Shown here piece by piece: positions 1 through 9,863 of a stretch of 10,729 bases of DNA (the stretch's first letter is position 1; each line of letters starts with the position of its first letter). The notes beneath the pieces were generated by a model. It searched no databases. It worked only from the letters and a program-made list of their open reading frames with translations, and was not told the origin of the DNA. Source of the DNA: Gammaproteobacteria bacterium. Lineage in GTDB: Bacteria; Pseudomonadota; Gammaproteobacteria; SURF-13. The position numbers and the translations under genes were made by a program. The stretch is taken from assembly GCA_023487615.1 (NCBI GenBank), contig JAMDBH010000061.1:815-11543 (forward strand). Direction: 5' to 3'.

Positions 1-117
1 GTCACCGGCCATAACAGCAGATAAAGCGCCGCCAAGGCGAGCACCGCTGCGATCAGGCGTTGCGTGGCGACCTCCATGCCTCGCGGCCAGCGCCGCGCAA
101 GATCTATCGCCCACACC
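1..117. repeat. Left arm of 117-bp perfect inverted repeat
   Basis: Bases 1-117 are the exact reverse complement of 573-689 (position k pairs with 690-k), with no mismatch seen; identity stops at 118/572. The arm is an inverted duplicate of the 3' part of the PAP2 gene, with about 455 bases between arms. Its position at the very edge of the window suggests a fold-back chimera at a contig end rather than a biological repeat. If the real contig continues to the left, the inverted copy may extend further. Confidence 0.95.
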
Positions 118-792
118 TTGTTTCTGTGGATCAATAAACAGGGCCTGTTCGCCGACGATGTTGTGTGGGCGGCCATTACGATGCTGGGTGACGGCTGGAT
201 TGCCATGATCTTACTGCTGCCGCTGGCGGGGCGGCGCCCGGACATCCTCTGGGCAGCCATGGTTGCCGGTCTACTCAGTACACTGCTGGTGCTCAGCTTC
301 AAACTCGCGCTCGGCGTTGCACGTCCACCGGCCGTGTTGTCACCCGAGAGCTTTCATCTCATCGGCCCCGCCCTCAAGGCCACGGCCTTTCCCTCCGGCC
401 ACACGGCTACTATCTTCGCCTGGGCGGGTGTGGTCGCACTCGGTTTTAAGAATGGATGGCTAGGGGCGGGCCTGTTGCTCATCGCCGCCGCCGTCGGGCT
501 ATCGCGCATCATGGTGGGCGTGCATTGGCCGCTCGACGTACTGGGCGGGGCGCTGCTCGGTTGGATGAGTGCGGTGTGGGCGATAGATCTTGCGCGGCGC
601 TGGCCGCGAGGCATGGAGGTCGCCACGCAACGCCTGATCGCAGCGGTGCTCGCCTTGGCGGCGCTTTATCTGCTGTTATGGCCGGTGACCAGTTATGCGG
701 ATACACAAGTATTGCAGCGCGTCATTGCGCTGAGCTGTTTGATGCTGGCTCTGCCGGGCTTGATACGTCTATTCGTGGCTTCACACGGATGA
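64..792 (+). CDS. PAP2-family membrane phosphatase with chimeric 5' end
   Basis: This is a type 2 phosphatidic acid phosphatase-like integral membrane enzyme; relatives dephosphorylate lipid phosphates such as undecaprenyl diphosphate, phosphatidate or lipid A. All three PAP2 signatures are intact in the 242-residue frame: K80-x6-R87-P88, P110-S-G-H113, and S147-R148-x5-H154-x3-D158, with hydrophobic segments between and after them. The first 18 codons (64-117) are not genuine. They lie in a perfect inverted copy of 573-689, and homology to the family starts at about codon 19 (LFLWIN, comparable with LLVWIN near the N-terminus of the other PAP2 protein at 3475). The authentic start therefore seems lost at the 117/118 junction, probably only a few residues missing, or it is a TTG at 118. 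The 3' end overlaps the convergent glycosyltransferase by 71 bases. Family assignment is firm; substrate is unknown. Confidence 0.85.
   Translation: MATSMPRGQRRARSIAHTLFLWINKQGLFADDVVWAAITMLGDGWIAMILLLPLAGRRPDILWAAMVAGLLSTLLVLSFKLALGVARPPAVLSPESFHLIGPALKATAFPSGHTATIFAWAGVVALGFKNGWLGAGLLLIAAAVGLSRIMVGVHWPLDVLGGALLGWMSAVWAIDLARRWPRGMEVATQRLIAAVLALAALYLLLWPVTSYADTQVLQRVIALSCLMLALPGLIRLFVASHG
573..689. repeat. Right arm of 117-bp perfect inverted repeat
   Basis: This segment is the partner of bases 1-117. It sits inside the PAP2 reading frame downstream of the last catalytic motif and codes for normal-looking protein, so this copy is taken as the original and the copy at 1-117 as the derived one. 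Confidence 0.95.
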
Positions 793-2362
793 GCGCAATC
801 CCGTTTTTGTAATAAAGCGTCTCGTAGCCCTTGAGGCGCGGCAGATAGCTCGACTTGGTCAGTGCGATCTCGCCGGGGCGCGGTTCGCGCCGCTCCACAA
901 GCCGTTCGCTGTAAACATTAAAGCTCGGCGCGTTCAGTCCCCCCATTTCGGCGAAATCGTCAACGATGAAGCTCGGCGCGTTCAGTCCCCACATGACCAC
1001 CGTATAATCGGCCCGCTTGGCGATGAGCGCCGCCTCCTTGATGGGCGATTGCAAAATCTGCCCCGCTATCGGCAGCACAAACAGCGCCACCCCCGTCACG
1101 GTAACGAGCCCGCTGCACAACAATTTTCCTGGGCTGCTAAACCGGTTTTCAAACATAAAGTACACAGTGAGTAAAATGGCCAGTGAAAAAAATAATCTGT
1201 AGGGGAATGAAAAGTAATCGCCCGCATCGCGCAATGTGTCTCGAATAAACACATCATGCACCGCCGCGAGCCAGGCATGAATCAGTTCGGGGAGAAACAG
1301 CAAGGCGGTAAACAAGAGCAGCGGCGGCAGAAGGATCATGAATCCGGAGCGCAATGTGTCCAGGTACATGGCCATCAAGATGATGGCGGCGGGATAGCCG
1401 TACACCGCATAGTGGGGCAACTTGGTGCCGGAAAACGAAAAAAATATCAGAACGAATAAAAACCATATCAGGAGATAACGTTTTAGATCATCGTTGACGA
1501 TTTCGCCGAAATGGGTGAAGGTTTTGAACAGCAGTACGGTGTAAGGCAACAGACCGATGAGGACGACCGGGATATAATAAAAAAATCCGCCGCCATGCTG
1601 CTCAAAGGTTTCTCCAAAGCGGGCGATATTATGCTTGAAGAAAAATCCCTGGATAAAGGCGTCGCCCTCTCTGAGGTACTGCGCGATGTACCAGGGCAGG
1701 GCCAGCAGCCCGAACAGCGCCATCGCACGAAGATTAAACAGCGCCATGAGCCAAGTCCTGAATTCACCCTTGCTCAAAAAAAACAACAGACTCACGGCGA
1801 GTGGAATGACCACCGCAACCGGCCCCTTGGTGAGAAAGCCCAGGGCCATGGCTGCGGCGCTGAGATAGACATATCTCAGTTCGCGTGACTGATAGAAAAG
1901 ATAAGTACTAAACAGTGCACCGCTGAGAAACAGATTCAATAGGGCGTCCGCGATGGCGGCCTTGGCGATGAGCGAGATCTGCAACGTACTGGCCGTGATG
2001 ATGGCGGCATACAAAGCCATGGCGGTGGTCGTGTACCTCTTTGTGAAGAGAAAGATCAGCCAGACCCACAGCGTGGCGGCTAAAGCCGAGGGTAACCGCA
2101 AGGCGAATTCATTAAGACCCAAGGTCCAGACGCTCGCGGCCTGCAACCAGTGGATTAGCACCGGCTTGTCGTAGCGCGGCGCACCATTCAGATAAGGGGA
2201 AATAAAATCGCCGCGCACGAACATCTCGCGGGTGGCCTCGCTGAAGGCGCCCTCGTCCAGGTCGAACAGCGGCACCGCATGGATGTTGAGAAAAAAACCG
2301 GCCAGCACACAGGCGGCGAACAATGTGTAAAGCCCTATGTTGGAGCGAGTGAGGCTGTTCAT
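722..2362 (-). CDS. ArnT-like (GT39/GT83-type) membrane glycosyltransferase
   Basis: A multipass glycosyltransferase of the PMT/ArnT superfamily, which moves a sugar from a polyprenyl-phosphate carrier to an acceptor on the periplasmic face. The N-terminal loop has the expected DLDEGAFSEATREM block with the acidic D-E pair, followed by RYDKPVLIHWLQ. Further family blocks are KGPVAVVIP, PWYIAQ, HNIARFGETFEQHGGG and SGTKLPHYAVYGYPA. About a dozen hydrophobic segments precede a C-terminal soluble region. The frame is open to a GTG at 2404 and an ATG at 2398, but those lie in or beside a palindromic repeat. The ATG at 2362 has AGGG eight bases upstream and gives 546 residues, so it is preferred. 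Residues about 459-481 carry an unusual 16-residue insertion in which GLNAPSF occurs twice. It converges on and overlaps the PAP2 gene and is divergent from the operon at 2499. Sugar and acceptor are unknown. Confidence 0.88.
   Translation of the reverse strand: MNSLTRSNIGLYTLFAACVLAGFFLNIHAVPLFDLDEGAFSEATREMFVRGDFISPYLNGAPRYDKPVLIHWLQAASVWTLGLNEFALRLPSALAATLWVWLIFLFTKRYTTTAMALYAAIITASTLQISLIAKAAIADALLNLFLSGALFSTYLFYQSRELRYVYLSAAAMALGFLTKGPVAVVIPLAVSLLFFLSKGEFRTWLMALFNLRAMALFGLLALPWYIAQYLREGDAFIQGFFFKHNIARFGETFEQHGGGFFYYIPVVLIGLLPYTVLLFKTFTHFGEIVNDDLKRYLLIWFLFVLIFFSFSGTKLPHYAVYGYPAAIILMAMYLDTLRSGFMILLPPLLLFTALLFLPELIHAWLAAVHDVFIRDTLRDAGDYFSFPYRLFFSLAILLTVYFMFENRFSSPGKLLCSGLVTVTGVALFVLPIAGQILQSPIKEAALIAKRADYTVVMWGLNAPSFIVDDFAEMGGLNAPSFNVYSERLVERREPRPGEIALTKSSYLPRLKGYETLYYKNGIALIRVKPRIDVSSPAEPASNSSAQ
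921..990 (-). repeat. 22-bp direct duplication flanking an inverted insert
   Basis: Bases 921-942 and 969-990 are identical 22-base copies, 48 bases apart. The stretch between them, extended to 942-969, is the exact reverse complement of 1488-1515 (28 of 28 bases, mismatching immediately on both sides). In protein terms GLNAPSF is repeated around IVDDFAEMG. The 48-base addition keeps frame and adds no stop. Confidence 0.95.
1488..1515 (-). repeat. Probable donor of the inverted 28-base insert
   Basis: In the minus-strand gene this segment codes HFGEIVNDD within a normal part of the ArnT-like protein. Its exact reverse complement occurs at 942-969, where it is read as IVDDFAEMG. It is taken as the donor because it lies in continuous family-like sequence, while the other copy interrupts a motif. 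Confidence 0.85.
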
Positions 2363-2402
2363 ATCGCGGGCCCTAGAGTCCATTTCGGATAAAACCATAT
2401 TC

Positions 2403-2465
2403 ACCGCGGAGGACGCGGAGAGATAAGTTCAAAAAGACTTGGTTCAGCTCTGCGCCCTCTGCGGT
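2403..2465. repeat. Imperfect palindromic intergenic repeat (CCGCGGAGGACGCGG type)
   Basis: Left arm 2403-2419 and right arm 2449-2465 are complementary at 14 of 17 positions; two of the three differences would be G-U pairs in RNA. The loop is about 29 bases. Short sequences of this kind, built on GCGGAGGACGCGGAGA and its complement, are commonly seen between genes in proteobacteria; that comparison is from memory. It sits between the two divergent genes, so any promoters for them lie in or beside it. I could not identify convincing -35/-10 pairs. Confidence 0.7.
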
Positions 2466-2498: not shown

Positions 2499-3482
2499 AT
2501 GGGCGAAAGGGTTGCGCTGCGCGCTCGCGCCACCTACACTGAGTCAGCACCCTCATCGCCAACCAGCCCGCCAAACTACCTCGTGAAGCTATCATATCTC
2601 ATAGGCATCACTCTCTTTATCGCCTTCGTGGCGCTGATCGAATTCTATCTCGGTTGGCGGAACGTGCTCGCCCCCTGGCGGGCCTTGCCCTATAGTCTAT
2701 TATTCCTGGCTATTATACTGACGTTTTTTACTTACTGGGTCAGGGCCGTGCGGTTGTATGACTATTTCCGCGATGAAATGCGGGGGGCGTTTGCCTCTTG
2801 CTTCAGACTCATGCTGCTGCATAATTTTTTCAATAACATGCTTCCGATGCGGGCCGGAGAGATTTCCTTTCCCATACTTATGAAGCGCTACTTCAACGTG
2901 CCGCTGATGCGTTCCACCCCCGCACTGCTGTGGTTTCGGGTGCTGGACATGCACACCCTGGTGCTGCTCGCGCTGGGGATCACTCTTCGGCCCTGGACGT
3001 ATGCCGGCGCGGCGTGTCTGCTATGGTTGAGCGTGCCGTATCTGCTGTTTCTAGGTAATGCAAAGATACTCGGCTATCTGGACGCCAATCCAGGCGGCCG
3101 TCCGCGCAGACTGCTGCACAAGGTTTTAATCAGTCTCCCGCACACCCACAGCGCCTTCTGGCGCGCCTGGCTGTGGACCGTCATCAACTGGATCGTCAAA
3201 TTGGGCGTATTTGTCTGGGTGTTGCGATTGTTTATCGAGATCCCGTTCGCCGCCGCCTGGCTCGGCGTAATTGGCGGCGATGTGACCAGCGTGCTGCCCA
3301 TCCATGCCTTCGCGGGCGCCGGCACCTACGAGGCGGGCGTGGTGGCGGGCTTACTGCCGTTCGGCGCACCGGCCGCGGCCGCCTTCAAGGCCGCTGTCAA
3401 CCTGCACTTATTCTTGCTGGCCACCACGCTGCTGGGCGGTGCGGTGAGTCTATTGCTTTCACGGCCTGCTCAACATGGATGA
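2499..3482 (+). CDS. LPG-synthase-TM/AglD (UPF0104)-type multipass membrane protein
   Basis: This resembles the flippase-like transmembrane domain family that includes the membrane half of MprF and archaeal AglD (PF03706 type). Supporting blocks are HNFFNNMLPMRAGEISFPILMKR in the first half (the family's NNxLPxRxGE pattern) and GGDVTSVLPIHAFAGAGTYEAG in the second (the GxGxxE pattern), with about seven or eight hydrophobic segments. There is no C-terminal lysyl-transferase domain, so it is a stand-alone membrane domain, possibly moving a lipid-linked intermediate across the membrane; that role is inferred. The frame is open from a TTG at 2439 inside the palindromic repeat, which is unlikely to be the start. 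ATG 2499 (327 residues) or GTG 2583 (about 299 residues, just before the first membrane segment) are more plausible, and neither has a good ribosome site. Its end overlaps the next gene by 8 bases. Confidence 0.8.
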   Translation: MGERVALRARATYTESAPSSPTSPPNYLVKLSYLIGITLFIAFVALIEFYLGWRNVLAPWRALPYSLLFLAIILTFFTYWVRAVRLYDYFRDEMRGAFASCFRLMLLHNFFNNMLPMRAGEISFPILMKRYFNVPLMRSTPALLWFRVLDMHTLVLLALGITLRPWTYAGAACLLWLSVPYLLFLGNAKILGYLDANPGGRPRRLLHKVLISLPHTHSAFWRAWLWTVINWIVKLGVFVWVLRLFIEIPFAAAWLGVIGGDVTSVLPIHAFAGAGTYEAGVVAGLLPFGAPAAAAFKAAVNLHLFLLATTLLGGAVSLLLSRPAQHG

Positions 3483-4044
3483 GGCGCTGCTCGTCTGGAT
3501 CAACCAGTCCTGGGCGCATCCCTGGAATGATGTCCTGTTTTCCTGGCTTTCCGACCGCAACACCTTCGCCTTTCCGCTGGCGGCAGTTATGCTCCTGCTC
3601 AGCATAAAACAGTATGGCCGTGATGGAGTGCGGTTGTGGCTGGCGTTGCTTGCTCTGGTCATCGCCGGCGATGCGATGGGCAATCTGGTCAAGCATCTAT
3701 GGGCGCAACCGCGCCCATGCTATGTCATCGCTGAGTTGTTGCGGCTTCCCAACGGGCGCTGCGGATCTCAGTTGAACGGCATCCCCTCCAACCACGCGCT
3801 CAATTTTTTTGCGGTGGCCACTTTTATAAGTTTCATTACACGTTCGTGGAGATGGGCGCTGACGCTGTTCAGCATCGCTCTATTAGTAACGATCTCCCGT
3901 GTCTATCTCGGCAAGCATTATCCGAGTCAGGTGGCGATGGGCGCCGTGATCGGAACCCTGCTGGCTTACCTTGCCGCCCTCATCGGCGTACAATATTTTG
4001 ATTTTATGCGCCGCATCCATCATCCCCATGAACAGCACCGCTGA
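3475..4044 (+). CDS. PAP2-family phosphatase with atypical third motif
   Basis: A 189-residue membrane phosphatase of the PAP2 type, short and made almost wholly of the core domain. Motif 1 is K73-x6-R80-P81, motif 2 is P104-S-N-H107 (Asn instead of the commoner Gly), and motif 3 is S141-R142-x5-H148. The usual aspartate four residues after that histidine is Gln152 (HYPSQV rather than HYPSDV). That aspartate normally supports the nucleophilic histidine, so activity may be altered. The start at 3475 overlaps the previous gene by 8 bases and the next gene starts inside its last codons, implying coupled translation. With a GT2 enzyme and ArnT-like proteins beside it, a role in handling undecaprenyl phosphates or modifying lipid A is plausible but not shown. 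Confidence 0.88.
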   Translation: MDEALLVWINQSWAHPWNDVLFSWLSDRNTFAFPLAAVMLLLSIKQYGRDGVRLWLALLALVIAGDAMGNLVKHLWAQPRPCYVIAELLRLPNGRCGSQLNGIPSNHALNFFAVATFISFITRSWRWALTLFSIALLVTISRVYLGKHYPSQVAMGAVIGTLLAYLAALIGVQYFDFMRRIHHPHEQHR

Positions 4045-5044
4045 ATCCGTCGCGCACCGCGTCTCGCTCGTCGTGCCTCTGTACAACGAGGCGGAGAGCG
4101 TTGTGCCGCTGCTCCTGCGCGTCCACGAGGCACTGGCCGGTTATCGCCATCCGTGGGAGTTGATTCTGGTCAGCGACGGCAGCACGGACGACACGGAACG
4201 AGTGGTGCGGCAGGGCGCCGCACAATACGGCCGCCACGTGCGCGTGATAACCCTACAACGCAACTTTGGTCAGACCGCTGCGATGCAGGCGGGCATTGAT
4301 GCGGCGCGCGGCGACGTGATCGTCACGCTGGACGGCGATCTGCAAAACGACCCGGCCGATATCCCGCGCATGGTGCAGCGCCTGCTGGACGAGGATCTCG
4401 ATCTGCTGGTCGGCTGGCGCAAAGACCGCAAAGACAATCTCTGGCTGCGCACCATTCCCTCGCGCATCGCCAACTGGCTGATCGGACGGATGACCGAGGT
4501 GCGCCTGCACGATTACGGGTGCAGCCTCAAGGTATATCGCGCGCAGGTCATCAAGAACGTTCGCCTCTACGGCGAGATGCACCGCTTCATCCCGGCCTGG
4601 ATGGCCGCACATACGGCAACCTCGCGTATCAAGGAGGAGGTCGTTGCGCATTCGCCGCGTCAGTTCGGCGTCTCCAAATACGGTCTCTCGCGCACCTTCC
4701 GCGTGATTATGGACCTGCTCTCGGTGTACTTCTTCATCCGCTTCCGCGCGCGCCCCGGTCACTACTTCGGCGGTATAGCACTCGCGTTCGGCGGCATCGG
4801 CTTCATCGGCATGAGTTATCTATTCGTTCTCAAGATCTTTTTCGGGGAGAACATCGGCACACGTCCGTTGTTGATGATAAGCGTATTGCTCATTGTGATG
4901 GCCGTGCAGTTTCTCACCACCGGCGTGTTAAGCGAACTGATTGCGCGCACCTATTTCGAATCGGGCCAGGCCCGCTCATACATCATGCGCAACCCCGAAA
5001 GTCCGGAGGAATCAGCCGAGGCGGGCTGGAAGCATCCGGCATGA
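4028..5044 (+). CDS. GT2 polyprenyl-phosphate glycosyltransferase (ArnC/GtrB/DPM-like)
   Basis: This 338-residue enzyme is predicted to transfer a sugar from a nucleotide donor to undecaprenyl phosphate on the cytoplasmic face. The GT-A domain shows SLVVPLYNEAES at residues 13-24, VSDGSTDDT at 48-56, NFGQTAAMQAGIDAARGD at 79-96 and the metal-binding LDGDLQNDP at 101-109 (D102-x-D104), then DYGCSLKVYR. Two C-terminal membrane helices (about 245-271 and 280-305) match the GtrB/ArnC architecture. The frame is open from a TTG at 3971, but homology starts just after the ATG at 4028. That start overlaps the PAP2 gene by 17 bases, as expected for a coupled operon. The first acidic residue of the DDGS-type motif is Ser, a position that varies in this family. 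The sugar cannot be deduced. Confidence 0.9.
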   Translation: MNSTAESVAHRVSLVVPLYNEAESVVPLLLRVHEALAGYRHPWELILVSDGSTDDTERVVRQGAAQYGRHVRVITLQRNFGQTAAMQAGIDAARGDVIVTLDGDLQNDPADIPRMVQRLLDEDLDLLVGWRKDRKDNLWLRTIPSRIANWLIGRMTEVRLHDYGCSLKVYRAQVIKNVRLYGEMHRFIPAWMAAHTATSRIKEEVVAHSPRQFGVSKYGLSRTFRVIMDLLSVYFFIRFRARPGHYFGGIALAFGGIGFIGMSYLFVLKIFFGENIGTRPLLMISVLLIVMAVQFLTTGVLSELIARTYFESGQARSYIMRNPESPEESAEAGWKHPA

Positions 5045-5104
5045 TGCTCGGCAAGAGACCGGCCGGCCGGCATTGTCGCGGATTGTGTCCATGAGCCAGG
5101 CGGT

Positions 5105-5177
5105 CTCTCCCTCATCCGGCCCTTCGGGCCACGGCTGCGCCCCCCTCGCTTCGCTCTCCCCAGCGGGAGAAGGGGAG
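5105..5177. repeat. REP-like repeat with two small hairpins
   Basis: A stretch starting CTCTCCCTCATCCGGCCC contains two hairpins: 5118-5130 (GGCCC-TTC-GGGCC) and 5155-5170 (TCTCCC with GGGAGA), ending AAGGGGAG. It resembles the CTCTCCCTCATCCGG...GGGAGAAGGGGAG elements commonly found between proteobacterial genes; that comparison is from memory. It lies in the 160-base gap between the GT2 gene and the next start. A 12-base self-complementary CCGG run lies just before it at 5059-5070. Confidence 0.65.
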
Positions 5178-5204
5178 TCAGTGCGGTCCTTCGGCCGCAG
5201 GTTC

Positions 5205-6665
5205 ATGGGTAGAGGCGTCATCATCGCCCTGCCGTTTTTTTTACTCAGCCTGCCGCTCCTCAAGGCCGTGCTGATGTGGGGCGCAGGCCTGGAGTTGCAC
5301 TTCGATGAAGCCCAATACTGGGAATGGTCACGCCGACTAGACGGGTCTTATTATTCCAAGGGCCCGCTGGTCGCCTGGCTGATTGCATTATCCGAAACCT
5401 TACTTGGCCACGGCGCCTGGCAAGTCCGCCTCCCCGCCTGGTTAGCCTACAGCGGTTTCCTTGCTCTGTTGTTCTACTTTGCACATCAAGTGTGGAACAG
5501 CCGCGCGGCGAGCGAATGGGTGCTGCTGTTGGGGCTCACCACGCCGCTGTTCTTCAGTCTCGGATCGGTGATGACCACCGACATCCTGTTGTTGCTGCTG
5601 TGGACATGGGGTCTGTGGGCCGTGTGGCGCGCGCTGTTTCGCGGCCGGTCACTTGCCTGGTATGAGTTCGGCGCGGCGGCGGGCCTCGGAGGGCTGACCA
5701 AGCTCAGCATCGTCTTGCTGCCTGTTTTTGTTGGCCTGTGGCTGTTGCTCACCCGCGCCGGCCGCGAGCAACTCAAGACCCCCCACCCGTGGCTGGCGGC
5801 GCTGCTGGCCCTGGTCCTGTTCAGCCCGGTAGTCCTCTGGAACGCTCAGCACGACTGGGTCATGTTTCGTCACGAGCTGGGTCATGTCGCGCATGACGAA
5901 TTGTCGCTGAACAGCCTACTGGATTTTTCACTGACTCAAATTTTTGCCTTGTCGCCGCTTGTGGCGTTGGTGGCGGCCAGCGTGTTATGGCGCAGACCTG
6001 CATCCGAGCAGCAACGCTTCCTGTGGTACTCGTCGCTGTCCCTGTTAGGATTTTTTCTGATCAAGGCGTTCAGCGCCAAGGTTCAACTCAACTGGGCGGC
6101 GCCGAGTTATATCGGATTTCTGATTCTGTTTGCCGGACAGCTACCCGATCTCGCGCGCGTGAAGCGGGCGTTTGTTTACGTCGGGGTGTTCATATCGCTG
6201 ACGATGATAGCAATCGGCCATTTTCCCTATAGCTTTGGCTTGGCAAGTCAGCAGGACCCGTTTCGTAAAATGCGCGCCTGGCAAGCGCCGGTGGCGACAG
6301 TGCAGATCGCCCTGGAGGAGGCGGGCAAGCCCATCGAATTTATTCTTACCGATTCGTATACCCTAGCGGGCGAACTGGCCTTTTACTGGCCAACCCCGAT
6401 GCCTGTTTACATCACCGGCAACGCCACGCGCCGTTACAATCAACACGATCTATGGCCCGGTATCGAACGCGAGGCGGGGCGTAATGGCGCATACATAAGT
6501 ACCTCCACCGAACCGCCGCCGGAATTATTGCGCGCCTTCACCCATTGCGTGCTGCTCCCGCCGGTGACCGCCTATGCGCCCGACGGCGCCGTGCTGCGCA
6601 CCCTCTACGCAAGACACTGCACGGACTATCAGCCGATTACCTGGCCGCGCCCGTCGCGTTACTAA
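5205..6665 (+). CDS. Second ArnT-like (GT39/GT83-type) membrane glycosyltransferase
   Basis: A 486-residue multipass protein of the PMT_2/ArnT-like group, predicted to use a polyprenyl-phosphate sugar, such as the GT2 product made by its upstream neighbour. After the first membrane segment comes LHFDEAQYWEWSRRL (residues 31-45, with the D34-E35 pair typical of the first periplasmic loop) and YYSKGPLVAWLIA. These belong to the DEAxYWxWS subgroup, distinct from the DLDEGAFSEA type of the minus-strand gene. The frame stays open back to 4941, and an ATG at 5091 would give 524 residues. However, the extra N-terminal residues are encoded by the REP-like repeat and look non-protein, so ATG 5205, right before the first hydrophobic segment, is preferred. 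The C-terminal soluble part ends with a Cys-containing LYARHCTDY. It is probably in the same operon as 2499-5044. Confidence 0.85.
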   Translation: MGRGVIIALPFFLLSLPLLKAVLMWGAGLELHFDEAQYWEWSRRLDGSYYSKGPLVAWLIALSETLLGHGAWQVRLPAWLAYSGFLALLFYFAHQVWNSRAASEWVLLLGLTTPLFFSLGSVMTTDILLLLLWTWGLWAVWRALFRGRSLAWYEFGAAAGLGGLTKLSIVLLPVFVGLWLLLTRAGREQLKTPHPWLAALLALVLFSPVVLWNAQHDWVMFRHELGHVAHDELSLNSLLDFSLTQIFALSPLVALVAASVLWRRPASEQQRFLWYSSLSLLGFFLIKAFSAKVQLNWAAPSYIGFLILFAGQLPDLARVKRAFVYVGVFISLTMIAIGHFPYSFGLASQQDPFRKMRAWQAPVATVQIALEEAGKPIEFILTDSYTLAGELAFYWPTPMPVYITGNATRRYNQHDLWPGIEREAGRNGAYISTSTEPPPELLRAFTHCVLLPPVTAYAPDGAVLRTLYARHCTDYQPITWPRPSRY

Positions 6666-6685
6666 GGAAATCCTGAGTCATGTTG

Positions 6686-6768
6686 AACCGCCAAGGCGCC
6701 AAGACCGCCAAGATTTATTGCTTACCATTCAAATCTTTTTTCTCGGCGACCTTGGCGTCTTGGCGGTT
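6686..6768. repeat. Palindromic intergenic repeat (CCGCCAAGGCGCCAAG type)
   Basis: Left arm 6686-6703 and right arm 6751-6768 are complementary at 17 of 18 positions, the exception being a G-T (wobble) pair. Pairing continues imperfectly inward (7 of the next 10). The left arm carries a further CCGCCAAG unit at 6705-6712. Such GCCAAG/CTTGGCG palindromes are familiar between genes in many proteobacteria, from memory. It occupies most of the 131-base gap before rlmI and could act on transcript ends, but no U-tract follows the stem directly. Confidence 0.75.
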
Positions 6769-6796
6769 GGCGATATATTTTTCAGAGATCACTTAA

Positions 6797-8142: not shown

Positions 8143-9627
8143 ATGGTTAAACGCTCCAAGAGTCATGTTTCCGAACTGCATCCCGCCGATCTCGATCTGC
8201 ACGCGCGTTGGCAAGTCGAGGACTATATACACTGGCCGTGGCGACCGAGGCCGTGCAAGGTCCGCATTCTGTTTTATTCCGACAGCGGCGTCACACTCAC
8301 CGAGCCGCTCCCCAACCCCTTTACCCCCGGCAGCACGCCGGCCTTCGATCTCGGCAAGGTCAAACAGGTGTTGAAGGCCGATCCCTGGTACTGGGTCAAT
8401 TTCGACGTGACCTTCAAACTGAGATCGCAGCCCAACAGCCGCCTCGACCAGTTGAATATCAGCGCCAACTACGACCAGATCTGGTTCTTCGGAGTAGGTT
8501 CCGGCAATGTATTGACCGCCGCCGAGATCACCGCGCTGAATAATTTCATGAACCAGGGCGGCGGCATCTTCATGACCGGCGATCACGCCAATCTGGGACA
8601 GGCCATCGGCCAGCAGATCCCGCGTGCCGGCAAGATACGCCAGTGGCCGGCGCCCAACGCCGTTCAGCCCTTCTGGAACAACACCCTGCGCGAAGGGCCG
8701 ACGCCCGGTTTTCAATTCGATGACCAGTCCGACGACACCCCGCAACCTTTAAGGCTTAAGACCTATCCCGCAGGATTTCCCTGGTCCTACAGTTGGTGGA
8801 AGCGTTACCCTCACCCATTGTTTTGCAGCCAGTGGGGGCCGATAAAAATCTTCCCCGATCACCAGCACGAAGGCGAGGTGATTCTGCCGGGCAGCTTCCC
8901 GGCGGCCGAGTGGCCCAGCAAAAACGGCTTCCAGGCCAAGCCCGAACTCATCGCCTGGGGGCGCATCCTGTCGCCGGATGCCGACGTCGGCCGCACCGTG
9001 GCGGTCGCCGCCGCCTATGACGGGCATAGGGTGGACTTGGGCCGCATCGTCACCGACTCCACCTGGCATCACTTCTTCAACATCAATCTATGGGGCTACC
9101 CTCAAACGGCGCAAGGACTCAATGCACTGAAATATATCGAGGCCTATTACCTCAATCTCGCGGTGTGGCTCGCCCCGCCCAAGTTGCAGAGTTGCATGTT
9201 GAATGCCTTGTGCTGGGGCATCCTGTGGCACCCGAAGATATGGGAAATTCTGGAACTCAAGCCGATTCATCTCGGCCTCCAGGCGCGCGACGTGTTAGGC
9301 CGCTATGCTCCGCAATGCACCATTTACCGCTTCATTATTGACCGCATCCCGCCGGATATTCGTCTCAAGCTCGAGAAGATTCCCGATGACGGCGATTTTC
9401 TACCGCAGGTGGGTCCCATTGAAGACCTCATCCTCGGCGAGATCTTGAGCGGCATGCGCGGCAAACACAAAGGGCTTGACGACACGCCCAAGCCGCCTGC
9501 CGATCTCAAGAGCTTGGATAAGGTCGTGACCGCGGCCATTGAACGCAGCTTCGAGAGCTTGCTCACTACCCAAGAGCGCGCCCTCAAACAGTATCGAGGG
9601 ATACTGCGCGGTATGCTTAAAGGCTGA
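8143..9627 (+). CDS. Uncharacterised protein with ThuA/GATase1-like region
   Basis: A 494-residue soluble protein of unknown function. Residues about 38-165 look like the class I glutamine-amidotransferase/ThuA-like fold: a strand KVRILFYSDS, then YDQIWFFGVGSG, a helix after LTAAEITALNNFMNQGGG, and GIFMTGDHANLG at 141-152, followed by IPRAGKIRQW. No nucleophilic Cys sits at the expected turn (GDH is there instead), so amidotransferase chemistry is unlikely. A second conserved-looking block is GRIVTDSTWHHFFNINL (300-316), which I recall from other hypothetical proteins with the GDH motif. D147, H148, H309, H310 and the DHQHE cluster (239-243) could form a metal or sugar site; this is inference. 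The C-terminal third (about 345-494) is helical and unlike anything I recognise. There is no signal peptide or clear membrane helix. It stands alone between repeats. Confidence 0.85.
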   Translation: MVKRSKSHVSELHPADLDLHARWQVEDYIHWPWRPRPCKVRILFYSDSGVTLTEPLPNPFTPGSTPAFDLGKVKQVLKADPWYWVNFDVTFKLRSQPNSRLDQLNISANYDQIWFFGVGSGNVLTAAEITALNNFMNQGGGIFMTGDHANLGQAIGQQIPRAGKIRQWPAPNAVQPFWNNTLREGPTPGFQFDDQSDDTPQPLRLKTYPAGFPWSYSWWKRYPHPLFCSQWGPIKIFPDHQHEGEVILPGSFPAAEWPSKNGFQAKPELIAWGRILSPDADVGRTVAVAAAYDGHRVDLGRIVTDSTWHHFFNINLWGYPQTAQGLNALKYIEAYYLNLAVWLAPPKLQSCMLNALCWGILWHPKIWEILELKPIHLGLQARDVLGRYAPQCTIYRFIIDRIPPDIRLKLEKIPDDGDFLPQVGPIEDLILGEILSGMRGKHKGLDDTPKPPADLKSLDKVVTAAIERSFESLLTTQERALKQYRGILRGMLKG

Positions 9628-9662: not shown

Positions 9663-9667
9663 CCTTT

Positions 9668-9811
9668 GGGCGCCTCTAAAAAATGTGTCTTTTGCCTTTA
9701 TGCCGCGTTGGAATTCTGCTCGAAATGCTCATGTACTGGTGTGTACACTCCGCTTCCTCGCAGAATTCCGCCTTGCCTAAAGACAAAATCCACTATTTTT
9801 TAGAGGTGCCC
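9668..9811. repeat. 144-bp nested palindromic element, MITE-like
   Basis: Outer arms 9668-9684 (GGGCGCCTCTAAAAAAT) and 9795-9811 are complementary at 16 of 17 positions. Inside, TGTCTTT (9686-9692) faces AAAGACA (9778-9784), and GGAATTCTGC (9710-9719) faces GCAGAATTCC (9760-9769). The centre has CTCATGTACTGG and GTGTACACTCCG. It has the terminal inverted repeats of a miniature inverted-repeat element, but it codes for nothing and I see no clear target-site duplication. The central ATGTAC...GTACACTCCGCTTCCTCG sequence resembles a repeat I recall from other gammaproteobacterial genomes. It fills most of the 236-base gap before lgt. Confidence 0.7.
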
Positions 9812-9863
9812 ATTTATCGCCGACGGGCTGTTTTTCAATAGCCTGCTAGTCCATAATTGCGGC

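Follow-up and report, generated by a model that had tools for sequence, protein, structure and literature searches.

Gene content and context of the locus

Families could be assigned to eight of the nine main open reading frames (ORFs) that were scanned in the window, i.e. the whole 10,729-nucleotide stretch of gammaproteobacterial DNA analysed here. They comprise a PAP2-family phosphatase, a minus-strand ArnT-like membrane glycosyltransferase (GT39/PMT_2), an LPG-synthase-TM protein, a second PAP2 protein, a GT2 glycosyltransferase, a second PMT_2 protein, a SAM methyltransferase with a PUA domain (presumably RlmI-like) and Lgt. The ninth, ORF 8143-9627 (494 aa), matched no Pfam, NCBIfam or PHROG family at E 0.001, and no Rfam family was detected anywhere in the window. 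By eye, a further coding sequence starts at its right edge.

Two PMT_2-type genes (722-2404 and 4941-6665), two PAP2-type genes (64-792 and 3475-4044) and the GT2 and LPG-synthase-TM genes lie together within less than 7 kb; judged by these family assignments, the cluster looks like a neighbourhood for lipid-linked sugar transfer that is partly conserved in relatives. Of the 86 loci compared, 63 have relatives of two or more of the nine ORFs; the nearest genome loci (L001-L004, L010, L011 and L061) do not belong to these 63. The longest contigs recorded for ArnT-like homologues and for PAP2 homologues have lengths in common (11054, 10883 and 14454), which points to linkage of the two genes in closer relatives. 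Overall, the gene neighbourhood looks ordinary. Two intergenic features were observed in passing. A long near-perfect palindrome at 9665-9815, between ORF 8143-9627 and lgt, gave a single-strand DNA fold of -35.1 kcal/mol (z -8.07, with none of 200 shuffles as stable), and our impression is that of a dispersed intergenic repeat. An inverted repeat at 6683-6776, between the second PMT_2 gene and the methyltransferase gene, was noted by eye.

The ArnT-like gene (722-2404, minus strand) encodes a protein of 560 aa that belongs to GT39/PMT_2 by its score against PMT_2 (Pfam PF13231; 63.3 bits at a gathering cut-off of 26.1). Its only solved relative by profile search is ArnT, the lipid A aminoarabinosyltransferase (5ezm/5f15, E 2.5e-38), and 5ezm is also the best PDB match of the predicted fold (Foldseek, TM 0.71/0.74). 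The overall fold is thus common to both proteins, but the identity in the 5ezm alignment is only 21%, and the score against the ArnT equivalog NF009784 (NCBIfam) is 162.1 bits, far under the cut-off of 567. This places the window protein outside ArnT proper, and its substrate is not assignable from ArnT.

Anatomy of an inverted insert in the ArnT-like gene

Two 22-nt direct copies (minus strand) lie within this gene, at 969-990 on the upstream side of an insert in coding orientation and at 921-942 on its downstream side. They form a maximal direct repeat (22/22) and flank a segment of 28 nt (942-969, plus strand) that is complementary at every position (28/28, again a maximal exact repeat) to a donor segment at 1488-1515 (plus strand) of the same gene, approximately 520 bases away (spacer 518 bases). 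Neither pair of copies shows any divergence, and the window contains the 22-mer and the 28-mer nowhere else at up to three mismatches. The inverted segment shares exactly one base with each of the 22-mer copies (bases 969 and 942). The added unit amounts to 48 bases (969 minus 921), or 16 residues, in frame; the ORF stays open despite the insert, and its predicted product contains the peptide GLNAPSF twice.

An earlier note, made from the sequence alone, had described this arrangement. Its account of the flanking 22-base copies around the reverse complement of 1488-1515 proved exact to the base, as did the net gain of 48 bases with the frame kept and no stop, and the duplicated GLNAPSF was likewise borne out. 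The 1-3 bases of microhomology that it reported at the junctions, on the other hand, have to be reduced to a measured overlap of a single base at each. A double template switch, with a jump to the opposite strand and a return about 20 bases upstream as the note proposed, is the simplest description of the insert and fits the sequence exactly.

A chance origin of the repeats is excluded: the longest exact inverted match in 50 first-order Markov windows did not exceed 19 nt (mean 13.9), and in no dinucleotide shuffle (200 for each motif) did either motif find two or more matches with up to three mismatches.

The AlphaFold model of the insert-bearing protein retained an intact ArnT-like fold (mean pLDDT 87.8). 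Residues 474-488, with pLDDT below 50, fall between a strand (469-471) and a helix (493-499) of the predicted C-terminal domain, in line with the earlier assignment of the 16 added residues to that domain. In the model the insert is tolerable as a low-confidence loop and adds no confident structure.

Distribution of the insert among relatives

In the window protein the insert parts W472 from the LN.PSF motif, leaving 17 residues between W472 and L490. All of the 120 listed homologues (the best 120 of 4,197 matches) lack the insert and have a single residue between the corresponding positions, so that a check of the GLNAPSF copy number, as suggested in the earlier note, returned single-copy spacing throughout these 120. 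Measured against the same 120 proteins, the insert is the only window-specific indel in the product of ORF 722-2404. The nearest among the matches listed (P0001) has 96% identity across the alignment but is without the insert; since the protein database holds representatives of 90% clusters, a carrier may hide in the P0001 cluster (11 members). A search targeted to the insert (residues 464-505) yielded 49 candidates with one match at E <= 0.01 (P0003), which also lacks it.

At the level of genomic loci, 68 of the 83 hits spanning the site have the single-copy length when residues are counted to Y498. The other 15 (<=47% identity) have the gap placed elsewhere in the alignment and, by reading, one PSF-like motif each. 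The 83 hits are partly dependent, as L081, L082, L084 and L085 share their genomes with L002, L061, L001 and L010. A count taken from the pairwise alignments had pointed to extra residues in many distant loci; it was undone by the recount to Y498. As a separate observation, the aligned stretch includes a single TGA in three of six matches, namely the ArnT-like genes of L081 (G002:C38), L082 (G005:C29) and L083 (G009:C1). These stretches end at query residue 546-548, and the alignments have probably run past a natural stop.

A search for a nearer genome covered 80 loci and produced relatives no closer than ~60% identity and no second assembly of the same strain; the family of one relative had a match in six of eight genomes (58-61% identity). 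The viral contigs searched held no relative of the window, and no plasmid matched 700-2410 by distant blastn. Judged by the protein and locus alignments, the insert is derived and unshared with the relatives examined: the same 16-residue insertion, the discovery of which in relatives would have spoken against an artefact according to the earlier note, has no carrier among the 120 listed homologues or the 83 locus hits.

A second inverted join at the left edge

Bases 1-117 of the window (minus strand) are the exact reverse complement (117/117) of 573-689 (plus strand), a segment inside the PAP2 gene (ORF 64-792, plus strand; PAP2 score of 72 bits against a cut-off of 27.2). This copy, which does not figure in the earlier note, creates an inverted join at 117/118, situated 0.8 kb from the insert, with a spacer of 455 bases between the copy and its source. 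The PAP2 gene has lost its usual start to this copy, from which approximately the first 18 residues of the ORF (64-117) derive. All 10 aligned PAP2 homologues (the best 10 of 297) lack the join and have another N-terminus, rejoining the window protein at about residue 18-20. By this comparison the listed start of the PAP2 ORF (64-117) is chimeric. If the window is part of a longer contig, the copy may extend beyond base 1. Apart from the two pairs described, the window showed no exact inverted pair of at least 24 nt within 2 kb.

For comparison, control loci were scanned for exact inverted repeats (24 nt or longer, spacer above 30, starts within 2000 bases of each other). Comparable pairs were present in 6 of 80 genome loci (1.25 Mb) and in none of 166 viral loci (1.46 Mb), that is in 6 of 246 control loci overall, and none of them was flanked by a duplication; the window is the only sequence with an inverted pair flanked by a direct duplication (L081-L086 left out). 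An inverted terminal 30-mer was seen at 0 of the 144 ends of 72 complete control contigs, a figure that is relevant only if base 1 is a contig end. These 72 contigs were hand-picked (26 of 80 genome-locus rows and 46 of 126 viral rows); 40 viral stretches fell outside the end check, and the inverted-repeat scan covered all 166. The controls are largely MAG contigs and IMG/VR viral sequences, among which fold-back ends may be rarer than in raw assemblies. Moreover, some of the IMG/VR records may represent regions excised from contigs, for example the four complete ones whose identifiers start with 2.

Origin of the insert

The earlier note had left the choice between a real mutation and a chimera open. 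Both sides of that choice still stand and the matter is unsettled, but the evidence now tilts towards an amplification or library chimera, because of the left-edge inverted join, the absence of the insert from all relatives examined and the one-base overlaps at its junctions. Our preferred explanation, to which we give a probability of roughly two in three, is that the insert is an in-vitro template-switch chimera, as formed in whole-genome amplification, that was carried into the consensus, and not a fixed mutation. Two exact inverted joins fall within the window's first 1.5 kb, with re-priming 519 and 455 bases back and, assuming leftward strand growth, with the same polarity. The complete identity of the copies (22/22, 28/28 and 117/117) and the scarcity of comparable pairs in the control loci also speak for this explanation. 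Two unshared inverted joins that lie 0.8 kb apart, each reach ~0.5 kb back and share their polarity suggest one cause, although the 1-117 copy could have a separate cause and hence not corroborate the insert.

Under the preferred explanation, the growing 3' end of a leftward strand would lose its template near base 969, prime on the strand of opposite polarity ~519 bases behind and copy 28 bases of the same gene in inverted form. It would then come off and pair again with the template it had left, 21 bases behind its point of departure, leaving the 22-base duplication. The same process with no return within the window would account for the join at 117/118, where the end would leave near 118 and prime 455 bases behind; base 1 would then presumably be a contig end. 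The likeliest setting would be strand-displacement (phi29-type) amplification of scarce DNA followed by assembly from thin coverage, with branch migration freeing 3' ends and so making re-annealing behind the departure point possible.

Published descriptions of multiple displacement amplification (MDA) chimeras fit both joins in part. In the sections of Lasken and Stockwell 2007 (PMC1855051) drawn on here, 406 of 475 chimeras are inverted, 337 of these 406 have partners less than 10 kb apart, and a chimeric junction occurs about once per 22 kb. At both joins in the window the second segment is likewise inverted and the partners are less than 10 kb apart (spacers of 518 and 455 bases). As far as the excerpted reports go, the inverted type is again dominant among the MDA chimeras of another study (PMC6515389), and the chimeras of T7 strand displacement are inverted repeats for the most part (PMC9484634). 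The ArnT-like event differs from the chimeras in the consulted part of PMC1855051 in that it returns to the first template after 28 nt, and in its junction overlap of only one base. In that source, inverted joins over less than 10 kb overlap by at least two bases in 93.5%. Priming at two or more complementary bases, usual if not universal, is lacking at both insert junctions; the one-base overlap also speaks, more weakly, against a usual MDA join. A double switch with a 28-nt insert, moreover, is not a product described as common in the MDA papers cited here, which counts against the preferred explanation. Library-preparation artefacts of another kind were considered and set aside in view of the one-base overlap, since these, in the portion of the report used here (PMC10908179), form where natural inverted repeats or palindromes already exist. 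Chimeras account for only a minor share of reads in single-cell MDA data (0.93-4.68% in the excerpted text of PMC6515389), and phi29-amplified C. elegans assemblies are, by the passages used here, nearly identical in quality to unamplified ones, with more wrongly oriented read pairs in the amplified libraries (PMC4060946). Because such reads are few and amplified assemblies mostly sound, a chimera would seldom be expected in a consensus and would need thin coverage to enter it.

This general soundness of amplified assemblies lends some weight to the alternative that the living lineage acquired the insert by a true template-switch mutation, which we regard as possible but doubtful. A replication fork would have switched strands, inverted 28 bases and returned upstream, adding a 16-residue loop in a recent and probably near-neutral event; the 1-117 copy would then have arisen independently during assembly or library preparation, or be another natural rearrangement. 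The kept frame and stop-free reading favour this possibility and count against a chimera; 23,845 of 135,419 random double switches in ORF 722-2404 (0.176) do the same, so that a selected mutation is favoured less than sixfold. The ArnT-like fold kept in the AlphaFold model, with the insert as a low-confidence loop, points the same way, and the absence from relatives is equally compatible with a recent true mutation, even if the lack of any carrier, together with the breaking of a W472-L490 spacing otherwise held by every listed homologue, sits less easily with a natural change. The insert shares with the four-point template switches of great apes (PMC7954356, as excerpted) the departure, the inverted fragment and the return to the original strand before the departure point. 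Inserts there have a median of 12 and a maximum of 128 nt, and events with this order of return are known, although in vivo the order requires opening of the new duplex. The window differs in a donor ~520 bases away and in another inverted join nearby, for which few or no comparable pairs exist in the controls. The one-base overlaps also stand against a natural origin: in the consulted part of a Salmonella study (PMC3411829), five of seven inversion junctions tested were confirmed, those with at least 12 bp of microhomology, and the junctions at 7 and 9 bp were not (shortest tested, 7 bp). Similarly, the quasipalindrome-associated switches of Escherichia coli (PMC7202029, as far as cited here) have the template-switch mechanism in common with the insert but start from imperfect inverted repeats, in contrast to its one-base overlap.

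Two further explanations carry far less weight. A fold-back contig end is a typical spot for assembly-graph tangles, and the left edge, if base 1 is such an end, would offer a place for a mis-join made by the assembler alone, without a chimeric molecule underlying the insert. We consider this very improbable, as the flanks share only one base with the insert, so that both junction words would be expected in at least one read, and a graph error alone should not create them. For an old selected feature, or a programmed invertible or diversity-generating element, one could invoke the kept frame and the duplicated GLNAPSF peptide; but no relative examined carries it, its copies are identical with no more of them in the window at up to three mismatches, and none of the nine ORFs scanned belongs to a recombinase family, which makes such an origin hardly credible.

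Significance

If the insert is an artefact, as the preferred explanation holds, it would be a clean case of a frame-keeping chimera that could pass gene calling, and a false 16-residue insertion could in this way enter protein databases; the nearby second inverted join would serve as a useful warning sign. If real, the insert would illustrate directly how a bacterial protein can be lengthened in a single step by template switching. That this uncultured gammaproteobacterium underwent a true recent switch adding 16 residues at once to a conserved membrane glycosyltransferase with its frame intact, and with the neighbouring copy as a second natural event, appears unlikely to us; were both joins natural, the lineage would be one prone to fold-back template switching.
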